A stretch of DNA of 64,000 bases from Pigmentiphaga kullae (lineage in GTDB: Bacteria > Pseudomonadota > Gammaproteobacteria > Burkholderiales > Burkholderiaceae_B), in the NCBI RefSeq assembly GCF_004216695.1, contig NZ_SGXC01000001.1, forward strand, positions 1,488,001-1,552,000, given 5' to 3'. The position numbers were made by a program, and so were the translations under genes. The notes below the pieces were generated by a model. The model did not search any database and was not told the DNA's origin. It worked only from the letters and a program-made list of their open reading frames with translations. The first letter of the stretch is position 1, and each line of letters begins with the position of its first letter. This document shows, piece by piece, positions 46,770-54,914 of this stretch.

Positions 46770-47558
46770 ATGAGTACCGAGGGCAACCAGTTCAAGCTCG
46801 ACCCCAAGAGCCGGATTTCGCTATATGTGCAGTTGGCGGATGCGCTGCGCAACAAGATCACGGCCGGCGAATGGCCGGTCGGCTACCAGCTTCCCCGCTA
46901 CGAGGTGCTGGCCGAGCAGTACCAGGTCGCGCGCATCACCGTCCGCCAGGCGGTGAATGTGCTGGTCCAGGAAAACGTGCTGGTCTCGAACCGTGGCCGC
47001 GGCACGTTCGTGTGCGAGGTTCCGGGCGCCGCGCCGGGCCATCTGCGCACGCCCATCGCGGGCCTGTCGCCGCGCGCCGGCGGTTTTTCCATCGTCGTGC
47101 ACGAGGTGGTGCACGACGCCGTCCTGCCGCCGGAACTGGTCGCCAGCGGCAACTTCTACGATTCCTATGTGGAAGTGATCAAGACGCACGTGCGGGAAGG
47201 CAAGCCCATCGGTGTCTACAACATGTTCGTGGCCCGCCACCTGTACGAACGCTTCCCCGACGGGGCCGCGGCCTCCGAGCTGCTGCTGCAGCTTGCCCTG
47301 CAGCATGCCGAGGAAGAGATCGATCATTCCTACCAGACCATCAGCATCGAGACGGCCGACATGGTGCTGGCCAGGAAGCTCGACTGTCCCTATGGCGCTC
47401 CGGTGGCCAAGCTGGTCCGCAAGCTGATGACCACGGATTCGCGGGTGCTGACGGCCGGCATTTCCTATTACCCGGGCGATGTGTTCCTGATGGACATCGT
47501 CATTCCCAAGGACGTGCTGGTCGCCCACCGGCCGGCCGCGGTGCTGGCGCCCGGCTAG
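46770..47558 (+). CDS. GntR-family regulator with UTRA domain (HutC subfamily)
   Basis: Regulator of 262 residues. The winged helix shows SLYVQLADALRNKITAGEWP then LAEQYQVARITVRQAVNVL and the wing SNRGRGTFV. The C-terminal UTRA-like effector domain runs from about 95 to 250 (EEEIDHSYQTISIETADMVLA, VAKLVRKLMTTDSRVL). AGGA precedes the ATG. It ends 7 bp from the convergent quinone-oxidoreductase gene, which is the last gene of the CoA operon. HutC-type proteins bind GT-N-TA-N-AC-like palindromes, similar to those in that operon's promoter at 53089. Confidence 0.9.
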   Translation: MSTEGNQFKLDPKSRISLYVQLADALRNKITAGEWPVGYQLPRYEVLAEQYQVARITVRQAVNVLVQENVLVSNRGRGTFVCEVPGAAPGHLRTPIAGLSPRAGGFSIVVHEVVHDAVLPPELVASGNFYDSYVEVIKTHVREGKPIGVYNMFVARHLYERFPDGAAASELLLQLALQHAEEEIDHSYQTISIETADMVLARKLDCPYGAPVAKLVRKLMTTDSRVLTAGISYYPGDVFLMDIVIPKDVLVAHRPAAVLAPG

Positions 47559-47565
47559 CGGCGGT

Positions 47566-48540
47566 TCAGGCGGCGCCCACCTGCAGCAGCAGCTTGCCGC
47601 TGTGGTCGCCCTGTTCCATGTCGCGGTGGGCCTGGCTGGCCTGGGCCAGCGGATAGGTCTGGTGCACCCGGGTCTGGATGCGGCTACCCACCAGCGGCCA
47701 GACGACCTTCTTCAGCGCCTGCGCCACCAGCGCCTTTTTGGCGGCCGGAAGGGGACGCATCATGGCGCCGGTCACGCGAGCCTCCTTCTGCATGACCGCG
47801 CGCAGCGACAAGGACACCGGCGCGGCGCCCGAGGACAGGTGCAGGATGCGGCCGCCATAGGCCAGGGCGGCCAGGTTCTGCTCCATGTGCCGCCCGCCCG
47901 ACATGTCGAGGATCACGTCCACCGGGGTGCCGGCTTCCTGCAACAGCTGGGCGAAGGGCTCGGTCTTGTAGTTGAAGGCCCGGCGCGCCCCCAGGCTCAG
48001 CGCCAGGGCGCACTTTTCGGCGCTGCCGCTGGTGGCGTAGACCGGATGGCCCAGTGCCGACAGCAATTGGACGGCGAACACGCCGACGCCGCTGGTCGCG
48101 CCGTGGATGAGCACCGATTCGCCCACCTGCAGCGCCGCCAGGGAAAAGAAGTTGTACCAGGTGGTGAAGGCCGCTTCGGGCAGGCAGGCGGCCTGCTGCA
48201 GCGTCAGTCCGGCGGGAACCGGCAGCACCTGCTGCCAGTGGGTGGCGACGTACTCGGCATAGCCGCCGCCGTTGACCAGCGCGCATACCTGCATGCCGAC
48301 CTCGAGCCCGCGCGCCAGCGGTCCCACGGCGTGCACCGTGCCGGATACCTCCAGGCCGGGAATGTCGGATTCATGCTCGTTGGGGCCGCGCGAGCGCTGG
48401 CCGCAGTCGTGGCGGTTGACGCCGGCCCATGCAACCTTGACCACCACTTCGTCGGCGGCCGGCTGGGGGATGTCGCACCGGGCGGGAACCAGGACCTCGG
48501 GGCCGCCGGCCCGCGAAATGATGATCGCGTCTTGTTGCAT
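47566..48540 (-). CDS. MDR-family NAD(P)H:quinone oxidoreductase
   Basis: Zinc-free medium-chain oxidoreductase of 324 residues of the PIG3/quinone oxidoreductase group. The N-terminal GroES-like domain has the family AGVNRHDCGQRSRG and GLEVSGTVHAVG; the nucleotide fold carries ESVLIHGATSGVGVFAVQLL. The structural zinc Cys cluster of alcohol dehydrogenases is absent. It is last in the minus-strand CoA operon, 23 bp after the CoA-transferase. It may reduce a quinone, enal or enone formed in the pathway. Confidence 0.9.
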   Translation of the reverse strand: MQQDAIIISRAGGPEVLVPARCDIPQPAADEVVVKVAWAGVNRHDCGQRSRGPNEHESDIPGLEVSGTVHAVGPLARGLEVGMQVCALVNGGGYAEYVATHWQQVLPVPAGLTLQQAACLPEAAFTTWYNFFSLAALQVGESVLIHGATSGVGVFAVQLLSALGHPVYATSGSAEKCALALSLGARRAFNYKTEPFAQLLQEAGTPVDVILDMSGGRHMEQNLAALAYGGRILHLSSGAAPVSLSLRAVMQKEARVTGAMMRPLPAAKKALVAQALKKVVWPLVGSRIQTRVHQTYPLAQASQAHRDMEQGDHSGKLLLQVGAA

Positions 48541-48563
48541 GATGGGATTCTCGTATGGGGGTA

Positions 48564-49763
48564 TCAGGGGGACAGCTCGGCTTGCAGTCTATCAAGTTCG
48601 TCGTCCCCGCATTGCAGCAGGTCCGCCAGGATCTCGCGCGCCTGGGCGCCCAGGCCGGGACTGGGTTGGTAGGGGGGCGGCTCCTGGTCGAGGAACCGCA
48701 GCGGCGTTTCGGGAACGAGGATGCGGCCGTAGGCGGGATGGTCGATGTGGCGCAGGGCGCCGCGCGCATGCAGGTGCGGGTCGTCGACCACGTCCAGCAG
48801 TTCCTGTACCGGCGCGCAGGGTACGGTCTGCGCGCGCAGCCGGGACAGCAGCGCGGCATTGTCCAGGCGCCGGGTAACGGCGCCCAGCGCCTCGTCCAGC
48901 TCGTCCATGTGGCGCGCGCGCGCCTCGCGCGTGGCGTAGCGCGGGTCGGCGGCCAGTTCGTCCAGCCCCAGCGCGGCCACCAGCGCGCGCCAGTGCTTCT
49001 CGTTGGTGGTGATGATGGCGACGTGGCCGTCGGCCGAGGGATAGACGTTGTAGGGCGCCAGCCCCATGCCGCCGTGCCGGTTGCCGGTGCGCTGCGGCCT
49101 GCGGTTGCCGCGGCGCAGGCCGCCCAGGTTGGACGCCAGCGACGGATAGACCGCCTCCATCATCGACACCTCCACGCGCCCGCCCGCGCCGGTGCGCTCG
49201 CGCCGCAGCAAGGCCGTGACGATGGCGCCGTACAGGTGGATGCCGGCCATGAAGTCGCAGACGGCCGGGCCGGCCTTGACCGGGTCGCCGTCCGGCTGGC
49301 CGGTGCTGCTCAGGACGCCCGACATCGCCTGCACCGCGAGGTCCATCGCGGGATAGTCGCGGTAGGGGCCGCTGCTGCCGTAGCCGGAACTCGAGGCGTA
49401 GATGAGCCGGGGGTTGGCCGCCATCAGCGAATCGGCGCCCAGGCCCAGCCGCTCCATGGCGCTGGGCGTGAAGTTCTCGACCAGCACGTCGGCGCGGGCG
49501 GCCAGGCGCCGCAGTACCGCGCGGCCCGTCTCGGTCTTCAGGTCCAGGCACAGCGAACGCTTGTTGGCGTTGAACATGGCGAACGGCACCGTCACCACGT
49601 CGTCGGGCAGCGTTTCGCGTTTGCGCAGGTGTTCGCCGCCGGGCGGCTCGATCTTGACGATGTCCGCGCCGGCCCGCGCCATCAGGAAGGTGGCGTAGGG
49701 GCCGTTGTAGATCTGGGTCAGGTCCAGCACCGTGATGCCGGCCAGGGGCTGCGGAGTACTCAT
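48564..49763 (-). CDS. CaiB/BaiF family III CoA-transferase
   Basis: CoA-transferase of 399 residues that moves CoA between carboxylic acids. The family opening LAGITVLDLTQIYNGPYATFLMA is present; the catalytic Asp is in PAMDLAVQAMSG, at the usual spacing from the N-terminus, and later GRVEVSMMEAVYPSLASNLGG matches. It would activate the pathway's acid without ATP. Its ATG overlaps the stop of the DUF35 gene by 4 bp, showing translational coupling. Confidence 0.92.
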   Translation of the reverse strand: MSTPQPLAGITVLDLTQIYNGPYATFLMARAGADIVKIEPPGGEHLRKRETLPDDVVTVPFAMFNANKRSLCLDLKTETGRAVLRRLAARADVLVENFTPSAMERLGLGADSLMAANPRLIYASSSGYGSSGPYRDYPAMDLAVQAMSGVLSSTGQPDGDPVKAGPAVCDFMAGIHLYGAIVTALLRRERTGAGGRVEVSMMEAVYPSLASNLGGLRRGNRRPQRTGNRHGGMGLAPYNVYPSADGHVAIITTNEKHWRALVAALGLDELAADPRYATREARARHMDELDEALGAVTRRLDNAALLSRLRAQTVPCAPVQELLDVVDDPHLHARGALRHIDHPAYGRILVPETPLRFLDQEPPPYQPSPGLGAQAREILADLLQCGDDELDRLQAELSP

Positions 49764-50170
49764 GAGAGCTTCTCCCGCCCCGCGGGCTCGAAGCGCGCCA
49801 CCGAGTAGTCGTCCTGGGCCTCGATCCGCAGGCGCAGCGGCATGTCGGCGCGCAGGGCCGATTCGTCGCAGAGGATGTTGGAGATCATGCGCGGTCCTTC
49901 GTCCAGTTCCACGATCGCCACGTTGTAGGGCACGCGCGATTCGAAGGCCGGATGGTGGGCGCTGCGATACAGCACCCAACTGACGAGGCGGGCGCCGCCG
50001 GCCGCGGGCACGAAGCGGACGTCGCCGCTCAGGCAGTGCGGGCAATGATCGCGCGCCGGCAGCCAGCGGTGGCCTTGTCCGCATTGCTGGAACAGCAGCG
50101 TGCCGGCCTTCAGGCCATCCCAGAACGGGCGGCTGGTCTCGGTGATGTCGGGCTGGGGAAATTCGGTCAT
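49760..50170 (-). CDS. DUF35 OB-fold, zinc-ribbon protein (thiolase partner)
   Basis: Small protein of 136 residues with an N-terminal zinc ribbon and C-terminal OB fold. The metal site is Cys30 (QQCGQGH) with Cys43 and Cys46 (HCPHC); one of the usual four Cys is missing, and His34 may replace it. The OB part has LVSWVLYRSAHHPAFESRVPY and NVAIVELDEGPRMISN. Such proteins bind SCP2-thiolase-like partners and channel acyl-CoA. Its ATG overlaps the stop of the thiolase-fold gene in ATGA, which supports a complex with that protein. Confidence 0.9.
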   Translation of the reverse strand: MTEFPQPDITETSRPFWDGLKAGTLLFQQCGQGHRWLPARDHCPHCLSGDVRFVPAAGGARLVSWVLYRSAHHPAFESRVPYNVAIVELDEGPRMISNILCDESALRADMPLRLRIEAQDDYSVARFEPAGREKLS

Positions 50171-51297
50171 GGCTGGCTGCCTAGAATGAGCGTGCTGTGG
50201 GTATGCATGGTGCCGCCCTGGTTGCTGACGAGACAGGTATCGGCGCCGGGCACCTGCAGCGCGGCCTGCCCGCGGATCTGCCGCACGGCCTCGATGACCA
50301 GCTGCATGCCCGGCATGCCGGTCTCGGACAGCAGGCCGCCACTGGTGTTCAGGGGCAGGTCGCCGCCGATCTCGATGCGGCCGTCGGCCACGAACCGGCC
50401 CCCCTCGCCCTTCTTGCAGAAACCGTAGTCCTCGAGCGTCATCAGCGCCGTGATGGTGAAGCAGTCGTACAACTGCGCGACGTCGATATCCTTGGGCGCG
50501 AGCCCGGCCATGGCGAAGGCGGTGCGGCCGGAGACGGCCGCCTCGGTCGAGGTGAGCGTGGGCCGCTGCGCCACTTCCCACGAGGTCTGGCCCTGGCCGA
50601 AGCCCAGGATGGGGACGGCGTTCGGCACGCCCAGCGCGCGGGCGCGCGCCGCGCTCATCACGACCACCGCCGCGCCGCCGTCGGACACCAGGCAGCAATC
50701 GTCGCGGCGCAGCGGATCGATCTGCATGGGCGAGGCCATGTAGTCGTCCAGGGAAATGGCGGCGCGCAATTGCGCGCCGGGATTGGCCGCGCCGTGGCGC
50801 CGGCAGGCCTTGGCGATGGCGCCGAGGTCTTCGGGGCGGGTGCCGTGCTCGATCATGTGCCGGCGCTGGATCATGGCGTAGCCAGCGGCGGTGGAGAACC
50901 ATCCGTAGACGGCATCGTCGCCGCGCGGCCGGGCGTAGACGGCGCGATTGCCGGTGCGGGGGTTGTCCGCGTAGCAGACCAGGGCGGCCTCGCACTGGCC
51001 GGCCTCGATCGCCATGACGGCCTGGGAGATCAGCGCGATGTTGGCCGCGCCGCCCTGGTCCCAGGCGCCGCCCAGGCGCGGGCGCAGGCCCATGGCCTCG
51101 GCCAGCTTCTGGCCGTACATGAATTCGCGCGCCGAGGTCGGCACCTTGACGAACAGGGCGTCGATGATGTCCTTGCCGATGTTGGCATCGGCCAGCGCGT
51201 TGCGGCAGGCTTCGACGTTCAGGCTGACGGTCGAGCGGCCGGGCAGTTTGCCGTAGCGGGTATGCCCGATACCGGCAATGACGTACTTTCCTCTCAT
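50167..51297 (-). CDS. Thiolase-fold (SCP2-type) protein lacking thiolase catalytic residues, possible retro-aldolase
   Basis: Protein of 376 residues with the SCP2-thiolase fold (YVIAGIGHTRYGKLPG at the start). The residues that make a thiolase are gone: the nucleophile-Cys loop reads AWDQGGAANIALISQAV, the GHP histidine region reads TSGGLLSETGMPG, and the C-terminal CGGG loop reads VSNQGGTMHTHS. Tyr277 in LYDCFTITALM is kept. This pattern, plus an adjoining DUF35 gene, is that of Ltp2-type aldolases that split beta-hydroxyacyl-CoA by retro-aldol reaction. A pure acyl-CoA carrier role cannot be excluded. Confidence 0.85.
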   Translation of the reverse strand: MRGKYVIAGIGHTRYGKLPGRSTVSLNVEACRNALADANIGKDIIDALFVKVPTSAREFMYGQKLAEAMGLRPRLGGAWDQGGAANIALISQAVMAIEAGQCEAALVCYADNPRTGNRAVYARPRGDDAVYGWFSTAAGYAMIQRRHMIEHGTRPEDLGAIAKACRRHGAANPGAQLRAAISLDDYMASPMQIDPLRRDDCCLVSDGGAAVVVMSAARARALGVPNAVPILGFGQGQTSWEVAQRPTLTSTEAAVSGRTAFAMAGLAPKDIDVAQLYDCFTITALMTLEDYGFCKKGEGGRFVADGRIEIGGDLPLNTSGGLLSETGMPGMQLVIEAVRQIRGQAALQVPGADTCLVSNQGGTMHTHSTLILGSQP

Positions 51298-51313
51298 GGG
51301 GCTTCCTGTGGCG

Positions 51314-52090
51314 TCAGCGTGCGTTGAACCGGGCCGCGCGCTTTTCCTTGAAGGCCTGGCGGCCCTCGGCGGCGTCTTCCGTGGCGGAGAGCATGCGGTT
51401 GTACAACTGCTCCATGCGCAGTCCCACGCTCAGGTCCATGCTGCCGGCGCGCAGCGCGAGTTCCTTGGCGGCCTGCACGGCCAGCGGCGCATTGGCGGCG
51501 ATGCGCTCGGCGATCTTCATCGCCTCGGGCATCAGTTGCGCGGGCTCGACCTGGCGGTTGATCAGGCCCCAGCGCTCGGCAGTGGCGGCGTCGAAGGCGT
51601 CGCCGGTCAGCAGGAACTCCATGGCGATGGCGCGCGGCAGTTGTTCGATCACGCGCTGCGTGCCGCCGTTGGCGGCGATCACGCCGCGCTTCACCTCGGA
51701 CAGGCCGAAGGTGGCGTGGGGCGCGGCCAGGCGGATGTCGGTGGCCAGCAGCAAGGTCATGCCGCCGCCCAGGCAATAGCCGTTGACCGCGGCGATCACC
51801 GGCTTCCACATCTCCAGCCCGCGGTTGAGCAGCATGCCCTGTTGGGTCAGCCAGAACTCCGACAATTGCGGCGGATTACCGATGAAGGTCTTGAGGTCGG
51901 CGCCCGTGCTGAAGGATTTCTCGCCGGCGCCGGTGATGACGATGGCCCGCACGGCGGTGTCGTCGCGCATCTGCGCCCAGGCGTCGGACAGGCCCTGGTA
52001 GTGCTCCGCGTCCATGGCGTTGAGTTTTTCGGGGCGATTGATGGTGATGATGCCGACCCCGCGGTCGGTCTTCTGAGTGTCGATGGACAT
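51314..52090 (-). CDS. Enoyl-CoA hydratase/isomerase (crotonase family)
   Basis: Crotonase-fold enzyme of 258 residues. The oxyanion-hole segments are GEKSFSTGADLKTFIG and AAVNGYCLGGGMTLLLATDI; the catalytic acidic position lies in FGLSEVKRGVIAANGGTQR, where Glu is present. It would hydrate an enoyl-CoA to the beta-hydroxyacyl-CoA that the thiolase-fold protein could then split. It lies 16 bp before the thiolase-fold gene and 13 bp after the Bug gene. Confidence 0.93.
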   Translation of the reverse strand: MSIDTQKTDRGVGIITINRPEKLNAMDAEHYQGLSDAWAQMRDDTAVRAIVITGAGEKSFSTGADLKTFIGNPPQLSEFWLTQQGMLLNRGLEMWKPVIAAVNGYCLGGGMTLLLATDIRLAAPHATFGLSEVKRGVIAANGGTQRVIEQLPRAIAMEFLLTGDAFDAATAERWGLINRQVEPAQLMPEAMKIAERIAANAPLAVQAAKELALRAGSMDLSVGLRMEQLYNRMLSATEDAAEGRQAFKEKRAARFNAR

Positions 52091-52103
52091 GGATGCTCCG
52101 GGG

Positions 52104-53069
52104 TTACTCGGGTTGGATGCCGGCTTTCTGGATGATGGAGCCCCAGCGGCGGTTCTCCGAGGCCATGAAGTCGGCCAGTTCCTGGCGGCTGGTGCCCAGC
52201 GGCACGGCGTCGGACTCCAGGAAGTTGCGCTTGACGGTTTCGGTCTGCAGAGCGGCGCGGAAGAGCTGGTTCAGGCGGTCGACCACGGGGTCGGGCGTGT
52301 CGCGCGGCGCCAGCACCACCAGCCACGAGCCCAGGTTGAAATCGGCCAGCCCGCTCTCTATCAGGGTGGGGACGTCCTGCAGATTGGGCGTGCGGGCCCG
52401 GCCGGTGGTCGCGATCGCCCGGACCTTGCCGCCGCGGATCAGGGGCGTGGCCGAGGTCGAGTCGGCGAAGATCAGGTCGATCCGTCCGCCGATCAGGTCG
52501 CCGATGGCCAGGGGATTGCCCTTGTAGGGCACATACAGCATGTCGACGTGTTCGAGCTGCTTATAGAGCTCGGCGGCCACCCGCGAGGACGAGTTGCCGC
52601 TGCCGAAGGCCAGCGGCGTCTTGGCCGCGCCCGCCGCGCGGGTCAGGTCGGCGGCATTGCGGATGGGCGAATCGGCCCGCACCAGCAGCACCAGGGGGCC
52701 TTCCTTGAGCAGGGTGATGCCCTTGAAGTCCTGGATGGGGTCGTAGGGCGTGCGTTTGAACAGGAATTTGTTGGCCACGTGGGTATTGCTGGTCAGCAGC
52801 AGGGTGTAGCCGTCGGCCGGAGCGCGCATGACCTCTTCGGTGGCGATGAAGCCGTTGGCCCCCGCCTTGTTCTCCACGACCACGGTCTGTCCGGTGGCCT
52901 TGGTGATCTCCTGCGCCAGCACGCGGGCCGAGCCGTCGGTGCCGCTGCCCGGAGGGAAGGGCACCAGGATGCGGATCTGGCGTTGGGGAAAATCGGCGGC
53001 GTGTGCCGCGGTGCCGGCAAGCGCGAAAAGGGCGGCAATGCCTGCGAACAAGCCCTGGCGTATTCTCAC
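52104..53069 (-). CDS. Bug-family (TTT) periplasmic substrate-binding protein
   Basis: Receptor of 321 residues with a signal peptide ending near TAAHA. Family motifs include FPQRQIRILVPFPPGSGTDG, ENKAGANGFIATEE, PADGYTLLLTSNTHV and YVPYKGNPLAIGDLIGGRID. It is first in the minus-strand CoA operon, so substrate capture leads to CoA-dependent breakdown. The start at 53069 is 20 bp from a large palindrome, and GGAG-like bases (GGAGACC) lie just before the ATG. Confidence 0.94.
   Translation of the reverse strand: MRIRQGLFAGIAALFALAGTAAHAADFPQRQIRILVPFPPGSGTDGSARVLAQEITKATGQTVVVENKAGANGFIATEEVMRAPADGYTLLLTSNTHVANKFLFKRTPYDPIQDFKGITLLKEGPLVLLVRADSPIRNAADLTRAAGAAKTPLAFGSGNSSSRVAAELYKQLEHVDMLYVPYKGNPLAIGDLIGGRIDLIFADSTSATPLIRGGKVRAIATTGRARTPNLQDVPTLIESGLADFNLGSWLVVLAPRDTPDPVVDRLNQLFRAALQTETVKRNFLESDAVPLGTSRQELADFMASENRRWGSIIQKAGIQPE

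Positions 53070-53723: not shown

Positions 53724-54914
<1,191 letters not shown>

Follow-up and report, generated by a model that had tools for sequence, protein, structure and literature searches.

A probable non-steroid acyl-CoA retro-aldolase formed by a thiolase-fold protein and a DUF35 protein in an operon of Pigmentiphaga kullae

Introduction

In the papers that we found, the characterised thiolase-fold aldolases act on steroid side chains only. One is Sal-Shy(DUF35), the bile-acid side-chain aldolase of Comamonas testosteroni (9myr), for which the available part of PMC12329534 reports that the Tyr and Cys of a YDC motif are needed for retro-aldol cleavage and proposes a Tyr/Cys mechanism from mutants and structure. 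The other is Ltp2-ChsH2(DUF35) of Thermomonospora curvata (6ok1), in which Tyr294 (YDHF) serves as base and Tyr344 as acid (same part of PMC12329534). We compared these systems with a 64,000-nucleotide stretch of the Pigmentiphaga kullae genome (contig NZ_SGXC01000001.1, positions 1,488,001 to 1,552,000; hereafter the window), in which a six-gene operon encodes a thiolase-like protein and a DUF35 protein. In our best reading these two probably form an acyl-CoA retro-aldolase complex for non-steroid substrates, a variant of the thiolase-fold aldolases. In the open-licence PMC literature we found no study of any non-steroid clade member or of the gene module. Gene order, conservation, residues and predicted fold are what we observed, and from them we infer every reaction, complex and substrate class discussed below.

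Results

A thiolase-like protein with a Sal-type Tyr-Cys dyad

The operon comprises six minus-strand genes (53069-47566) for, in order, a Bug receptor, a crotonase, the thiolase-like protein, the DUF35 protein, a CaiB CoA-transferase and a PIG3-type oxidoreductase. Gene borders were verified directly in the sequence and domains were called with Pfam and NCBIfam at their cut-offs, which reproduced the gene set and coordinates of a first-pass annotation of this DNA. The overlap of the thiolase-like gene with the DUF35 gene, also described there, is a 4-base ATGA, and a second ATGA joins the DUF35 and CaiB genes. The thiolase-fold protein, our proposed retro-aldolase (376 residues; 50167..51297, minus strand; Pfam Thiolase_C_1, 1.2e-54), has as its closest PDB relatives by sequence 4u4e (1.7e-65), TcLtp2 6ok1 (8.5e-56), 7yvy and CtSal 9myr, a set that includes both proven aldolases, Ltp2 and Sal.

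At the three positions that mark thiolases and SCP2-thiolases (nucleophile Cys, HDCF His and GHP His), the window protein carries Gly83, Tyr277 and Glu325, respectively. The nucleophile column holds Cys in the thiolases 7yvy and 7pxp. The His of the thiolase HDxF motif is replaced by Tyr277, and the Cys of the SCP2-type HDCF is retained as Cys279. Both lie in an LYDCF motif (residues 276-280; 50458..50472, minus strand) and are the proposed catalytic residues, corresponding to CtSal Tyr302/Cys304 (available part of PMC12329534). The alignment thus bears out the first-pass claims that the nucleophile Cys and the GHP His were lost and the Tyr-containing LYDCF was kept. The loss of a C-terminal Cys, claimed alongside them, is correct as an observation, the C-terminal loop being SNQGG (358-362), but it is not diagnostic because 7yvy, a thiolase, has QNIGG in the same loop. 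Only the nucleophile can be counted as lost, because the Cys in YDCF is the one that shuttles protons in SCP2-type thiolases (HDCF) (available part of PMC12329534). Gly362 occupies the column of the CtSal oxyanion-hole Gly391.

The predicted active site is Sal-like and not Ltp2-like, because Tyr277 and Cys279 are kept, Cys279 stands where TcLtp2 has His296, and Gly327 aligns with its general acid Tyr344. With Ltp2 the window protein shares the fold, the Tyr of YDxF, the Glu in the GHP-His column and a DUF35 partner. With Sal it shares the fold, the nucleophile-column Gly, the YDC dyad and the oxyanion Gly. It differs from Sal in having replaced Gln347, Gln352 and Gln161, in its SETGMPG and MHTHS motifs and in its placement in a separate clade in our trees. 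SETGMPG (50308..50328, minus strand) is a family signature that, by alignment, includes Glu325; MHTHS (50194..50208, minus strand), a second signature, lies just past Gly362. The earlier designation of an Ltp2-type aldolase therefore stands as far as the retro-aldol residues and the DUF35 partner gene are concerned, but the protein has the Tyr and Cys of Sal instead of YDHF and Tyr344 and falls in a clade of its own in our trees.

In the mechanism that we propose, which follows the one put forward for CtSal, the pair would cleave a beta-hydroxyacyl-CoA, probably that of a small acid, to an aldehyde or ketone and acetyl-CoA (or propionyl-CoA). The beta-hydroxyl would lose its proton to Tyr277, the C-C bond would break and the CoA enolate so formed would be protonated by Cys279, with the DUF35 protein shaping the cleft.

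Conservation, phylogeny and predicted fold

Relatives were taken from genome contigs, of which the best 80 of 543 were retained, and 75 family rows were chosen by the signature SET[GR]MPG, so that the invariance of Glu325 in this set arises by construction. Gly83, Tyr277, Asp278, Cys279, Gly362 and His367 are invariant (75/75), and His365 is present in 68/75. All ten further clade rows (L010, L012 and eight without the strict signature, namely L011, L024, L028, L054, L069, L071, L076 and L080) also carry Gly83, Tyr277, Cys279, Glu325 and His367, so Glu325 is present in 8/8 rows that were not selected for it. Cys279 is the sole invariant residue among the nine cysteines of the window protein. 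Two loci in these counts, L014 and L082, are identical and were counted twice; they come from one contig (SPDP01000002.1, Alcaligenaceae bacterium SAGV5) that holds two copies of the same 11,318 bases, 100% identical, which reflect either recent segmental duplication or duplication in the assembly.

In a quick tree of 78 rows, for which 24 loci were taken out by hand and a length limit was applied, the family forms a starred clade of 62 rows separate from CtSal, TcLtp2, 4u4e and the thiolases. A careful tree of 33 rows gave the family clade a support of 96/92 with CtSal outside it, and grouped CtSal, TcLtp2 and one paralogue at 85/87. The approximately unbiased (AU) test rejected neither the joining of the family with CtSal (p 0.057) nor that with TcLtp2 (p 0.123), several comparators lying on long branches. 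The clade is patchy: matches at 1e-100 occur in 5/300 genomes of the order and 2/398 of the phylum, the window genome being counted in each. Among the best 80 of 543 relatives, locus titles name Beta- and Alphaproteobacteria, Actinomycetes and Eremiobacterota, with many metagenome-assembled genomes (MAGs). Public names of clade proteins are 'thiolase family protein' and 'acetyl-CoA acetyltransferase'.

An AlphaFold2 model of the thiolase-like protein, for which 55 of 97 rows were placed in the alignment, reached a pLDDT of 91.7. Its structural matches were TbSLP (Z 51.3, the top match), Ltp2 (Z 50.5) and Sal (Z 50.2), and Foldseek ranked Ltp2 second and Sal ninth among solved structures. TbSLP, the SCP2-thiolase-like protein of Trypanosoma (5ab7), shares the YDCF motif according to the available part of PMC12329534, but is eukaryotic. 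4u4e, a Sphaerobacter 'thiolase' and the best PDB sequence match, and the YDAF paralogues of the window genome lack the nucleophile Cys, as the window protein does; they differ in having YDSF or YDAF, in keeping HP in the GHP region and in forming a separate supported clade. The benzoylsuccinyl-CoA thiolase BbsAB (7pxp) shares the fold and, in the available part of PMC12329534, a DUF35 partner, whereas it has the nucleophile Cys, HDAF and GHP.

The thiolase-like protein has ten matches in the window genome (loci including L002-L008 and L100). Three of them (L003, L004 and L005) belong to the YDAF clade and have no Cys in the nucleophile column; L008 retains HDCF and ACASG, like a real thiolase.

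The DUF35 partner

The DUF35 protein (136 residues; 49760..50170, minus strand), a zinc ribbon followed by an OB fold, exceeds the Pfam cut-offs for zf-ChsH2 and OB_ChsH2_C (32.3 and 56.7 bits versus 23.2 and 27.1). Its best PDB match is the CtShy DUF35 (9myr_B, 2.1e-17), followed by ChsH2 (6ok1_B). A C-x3-H-x8-C-x2-C zinc finger at residues 30-46 (50033..50083, minus strand) has the spacing of that in the CtShy DUF35, a finger described in the available part of PMC12329534 as conserved only among Shy DUF35 domains. The Shy DUF35 is fused to MaoC, whereas the window protein is free-standing, has no MaoC domain and is accompanied by a crotonase in place of MaoC. The Ltp2 system differs in the same respect, its partner being the MaoC hydratase ChsH1-ChsH2.

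The Cys3His finger was considered as proof of membership in the Sal group and rejected, since 55 of the 77 family DUF35 rows have C4 ligands. Nine rows have C-x-C-x-H with the same spacing, seven have Cys3His in the C-x3-H form (L013, L014, L082, L015, L017, L022 and L025) and six are unreadable. Because C4, C-x-C-x-H and C-x3-H form a ligand series within one family, the Cys3His form may have arisen independently here, and the series is a possible path of zinc-site change. Elsewhere in the genome, a DUF35 domain at G000:C1:429238-429435 had no adjoining match to the window thiolase-like protein in the searches made.

A conserved module with a one-Glu crotonase

We examined 53 well-flanked family loci, each with at least 4 kb upstream and at least 3 kb downstream. 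Genes of the relatives were called by a custom script, not taken from annotation, and small genes can be missed: the DUF35 gene of L002 was found only by a separate search, and L022 has an uncalled gap at the expected DUF35 position. Genes were clustered by blastp, and many carry no label. Over whole loci, the crotonase was found in 53, DUF35 in 51, CaiB in 46, an acyl-CoA dehydrogenase in 44, Bug in 25, HyuB in 18 and HyuA in 17; within the same-strand run, the crotonase was found in 51 and the dehydrogenase and CaiB in 41 each. Many relatives have the order dehydrogenase-crotonase-(CaiB)-aldolase-DUF35, a scheme that would parallel that of the steroid systems but with different enzymes. The operon arrangement is not due to chance, because it recurs across phyla.

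These genes would together carry out a short catabolic sequence, CoA-dependent as the first-pass annotation had suggested. CaiB would transfer CoA to the substrate; in most relatives an acyl-CoA dehydrogenase would then introduce an alpha,beta double bond; the crotonase would yield a beta-hydroxyacyl-CoA; and the thiolase-like/DUF35 pair would perform the retro-aldol cleavage. For the oxidoreductase, the probable role is reduction of either the carbonyl product or a related enal or quinone.

The crotonase-fold protein (258 residues; 51314..52090, minus strand; Pfam ECH_1, 5.2e-60) is unusual for this step. Its catalytic Glu columns were set by alignment with the hydratase-type structure 3r9t. 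The column of the first Glu holds Thr112 (codon 51755..51757, minus strand) and that of the second holds Glu132 (codon 51695..51697, minus strand), and all 68 partner crotonases have Thr and Glu at these positions. We take the two columns to be those of rat Glu144 and Glu164. The first Glu is absent from hydroxycinnamoyl-CoA hydratase-lyase as well. Of the two residues in rat enoyl-CoA hydratase, Glu144 is the one that activates water, and C2 receives its proton from Glu164; the delta3,delta2-enoyl-CoA isomerases have one catalytic Glu (available part of PMC13126182). The two Glu residues of an enoyl-CoA hydratase are thus reduced to one in the window protein, and of the earlier call of an enoyl-CoA hydratase the crotonase-fold gene remains, while plain hydration is doubtful with Thr at the water-activating position. 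With one Glu, a crotonase might still hydrate a substrate able to stabilise a positive charge on its beta carbon; alternatively, it might be an isomerase or act otherwise. Among the 18 non-partner crotonases in these loci, ten lack the Thr and Glu combination and eight have it; seven of these eight lie in loci whose thiolase-like row misses the signature, and the remaining one (L081) lies over three genes off.

Weighing the retro-aldolase against other explanations

We consider retro-aldol cleavage by the thiolase-like/DUF35 pair rather probable, and the residues support it over thiolase chemistry, as first proposed. Several observations weigh against it. The Thr that replaces the water-activating Glu in every partner crotonase means that a beta-hydroxyacyl-CoA may not arise as assumed. 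CtSal Gln347 and Gln352, thought to activate Cys304, correspond to Leu322 and Glu325, the loop alignment around 352 being uncertain, and the oxyanion-hole Gln161 corresponds to Thr136. The Cys of YDC also occurs in SCP2 thiolases, so that this Cys alone proves nothing, and the YDAF clade retains the Tyr without it. Fold alone cannot decide between aldolase and thiolase, because real thiolases match the model equally well (6esq, Z 50.4; 7yvy, Z 49.4). Finally, the aldolase role is putative for every member of the clade.

The crotonase might instead be a double-bond isomerase, or a hydratase-lyase in its own right, in which case the thiolase-like pair would use a different intermediate. The retention of only the Glu164 equivalent (68/68), as in the isomerases and the hydratase-lyase, fits such a role. 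With an isomerase alone, however, the conserved aldolase would have no hydroxyl substrate to act on; we recognised no other hydratase in the module's common clusters, many rare genes being unannotated; and the hydratase-lyase model scores the window crotonase at 144.7 with a cut-off of 276. We regard this explanation as unlikely, although it is the strongest of the alternatives.

The thiolase-like protein might also be a non-classical thiolase or acyltransferase, of the BbsAB or PhlACB kind, with another residue as nucleophile. It has the same fold and a DUF35 partner, its structural scores are close to those of 6esq, 7yvy and BbsB, and NCBI subfamily matches below cut-off are named acetyl-CoA acetyltransferase. 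A covalent route is nevertheless disfavoured, because the CtSal dyad is invariant and the nucleophile column is Gly throughout the 75 rows; moreover, Cys279 is the only invariant Cys and the GHP His has become Glu. The operon also has no recognisable 3-hydroxyacyl-CoA dehydrogenase to supply a 3-ketoacyl-CoA, yet an SDR gene lies in or near the module in 24/53 relatives. On balance this role is improbable.

Slightly less credible again is a decarboxylase or another enolate-forming lyase for which the aldol step is not the job. TbSLP, with its YDCF and top structural score, slowly decarboxylates malonyl-CoA. That turnover is 0.005 per s, however, CtSal shows none, and the authors propose that TbSLP is an aldolase (all in the available part of PMC12329534). 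The crotonase and the usual dehydrogenase, too, fit a beta-hydroxyacyl-CoA and not a malonyl-type substrate.

Steroid substrates are unlikely because the operon has a crotonase and not a MaoC hydratase, the relatives have a single dehydrogenase gene, for which short/medium-chain enzymes are the best solved matches, and the genome has no steroid-24-oyl-CoA synthetase match above cut-off (best score 280.8 against 750 bits; 0/14 control genomes pass, and there was no positive control). The idea of an ordinary Sal or Ltp2 ortholog for steroid side chains has the dyad, the CtShy-like finger and the AU test in its favour, but with a separate clade in both trees and the gene evidence just given it has very little probability.

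Beyond the favoured retro-aldolase, we tentatively suggest a broader possibility, which we hold to be less probable than the retro-aldolase reading itself. The family could be a third class of thiolase-fold aldolases, spread over several bacterial phyla and acting on non-steroid substrates, in which the Tyr-Cys dyad would act together with a novel conserved pair, Glu325 and His367, and which would have co-evolved with the one-Glu crotonase. Crotonase and aldolase might then form a two-step make-and-cut unit for beta-hydroxyacyl-CoAs that cannot go through ordinary beta-oxidation, such as tertiary or aryl beta-carbinols. If the aldolase assignment is true, the public names of the clade proteins would be wrong, and a non-steroid clade in several phyla would extend the range of reactions known for the fold and offer new CoA-aldolases for biocatalysis. 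The clade would also allow the proposed aldolase function of YDC-type thiolase-like proteins, TbSLP among them, to be tested in bacteria, and its paired Thr-for-Glu crotonase is a second testable oddity.

Absence of the acyl-CoA dehydrogenase from the window

The first-pass annotation had pointed out that no acyl-CoA dehydrogenase is encoded, which is true of the operon and of the window: all 17 dehydrogenase matches in the genome lie outside it. Nine of the 53 loci, among them L015 and L082, lack a cluster dehydrogenase, and direct tblastn found none there either; L015 and L082 share the gene order of the window. One representative dehydrogenase of the relatives has short/medium-chain enzymes as its best solved matches. 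In the small clade of the window in the quick tree, L017 and L022 carry the gene, and in L022 and L025 (the latter not in the tree) it occupies the operon place of the window's oxidoreductase. A second complete module in the window genome (G000:C1:285034-289676) has the order dehydrogenase-crotonase-CaiB-thiolase-like-DUF35, and its thiolase-like protein is 63% identical to the window copy.

The absence in the window looks like a local loss, because 44/53 loci and the paralogous module in the same genome carry the gene. The window copy appears to be an offshoot that relies on a borrowed dehydrogenase or takes an unsaturated substrate, since the complete paralogous module is present in its genome and the MAG holding L015 also holds L032, which has a dehydrogenase. 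Desaturation would accordingly take place in trans, with the paralogous cluster as one candidate source, or be unneeded. Replacement of the dehydrogenase by the oxidoreductase was considered and is unlikely, as that enzyme would run in the opposite direction with NADPH.

Remaining operon genes, neighbours and mobile copies

The CaiB-type (family III) CoA-transferase (399 residues; 48564..49763, minus strand; Pfam CoA_transf_3, 1.6e-119) has the conserved Asp170 of its family, invariant in 81/81 aligned rows and presumably the active-site Asp of the transferase. The PIG3-family NAD(P)H oxidoreductase (324 residues; 47566..48540, minus strand) matches NCBIfam TIGR02824 at 334 bits (cut-off 296.8) and Pfam ADH_N and ADH_zinc_N. 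The Bug/TctC periplasmic substrate-binding protein (321 residues; 52104..53069, minus strand; Pfam TctC, 2.7e-61) has BugD as its best solved relative, with Bug27 and a terephthalate-binding protein also among them. The Bug and ABC receptors match many ligand types and do not pin down the substrate. Uptake through the receptor, as drawn in the first-pass annotation, is backed by the receptor gene but is incomplete, because the operon encodes only this component of a tripartite transporter. HyuA/HyuB genes lie directly beside the module in many loci (L029, L031, L035, L036, L048, L064, L076, L084 and others); for the representatives tested, caprolactamase (both HyuA and HyuB) and N-methylhydantoinase (HyuA) outscore ketone carboxylases, all below the NCBIfam cut-offs. 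The ibuprofen genes ipfD/ipfE are another thiolase-like/DUF35 pair.

All six genes are under purifying selection, with dN/dS of 0.06-0.14 against the 96-98% identical locus L013. Against L014 the values are 0.05-0.33, highest for DUF35 (0.33), and against the more distant L015 they are 0.29-0.52. The named records that come nearest, within the best 80 of 543 relatives, are 'Burkholderiales bacterium 67-32' and 'Alcaligenaceae bacterium SAGV5', whose thiolase-like protein is 97-98% identical. A GntR/UTRA (HutC-type) regulator (46770..47558, plus strand; Pfam GntR and UTRA) stands tail-to-tail with the operon and adjoins it in L013, L014 and L082 as well, but not in L015. A link to tyrosine breakdown through an adjacent HPPD gene was dropped, as HPPD likewise adjoins the operon only in L013, L014 and L082 and not in L015.

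There were 182 plasmid records with a match, and the three that were opened all have YDCF, a zinc-ribbon DUF35 and a GGGxT (Thr) crotonase. Plasmid pBPS33-1 of Hydrogenophaga sp. BPS33 (L101) carries GntR, Bug, dehydrogenase, crotonase, thiolase-like, DUF35 and CoA-transferase genes, followed by a second DUF35/thiolase pair and a two-subunit 3-oxoacid CoA-transferase, and this island is flanked by IS3-type and IS1071 transposases. On NT-25 plasmid 3 the module is followed by TctB and TctA. The plasmid modules look like mobile catabolic islands. In the 6.2 Mb host genome, the window operon is preceded upstream by genes for tRNA-Tyr, -Gly and -Thr and by an EF-Tu-like frame at 53724, which was named by eye.

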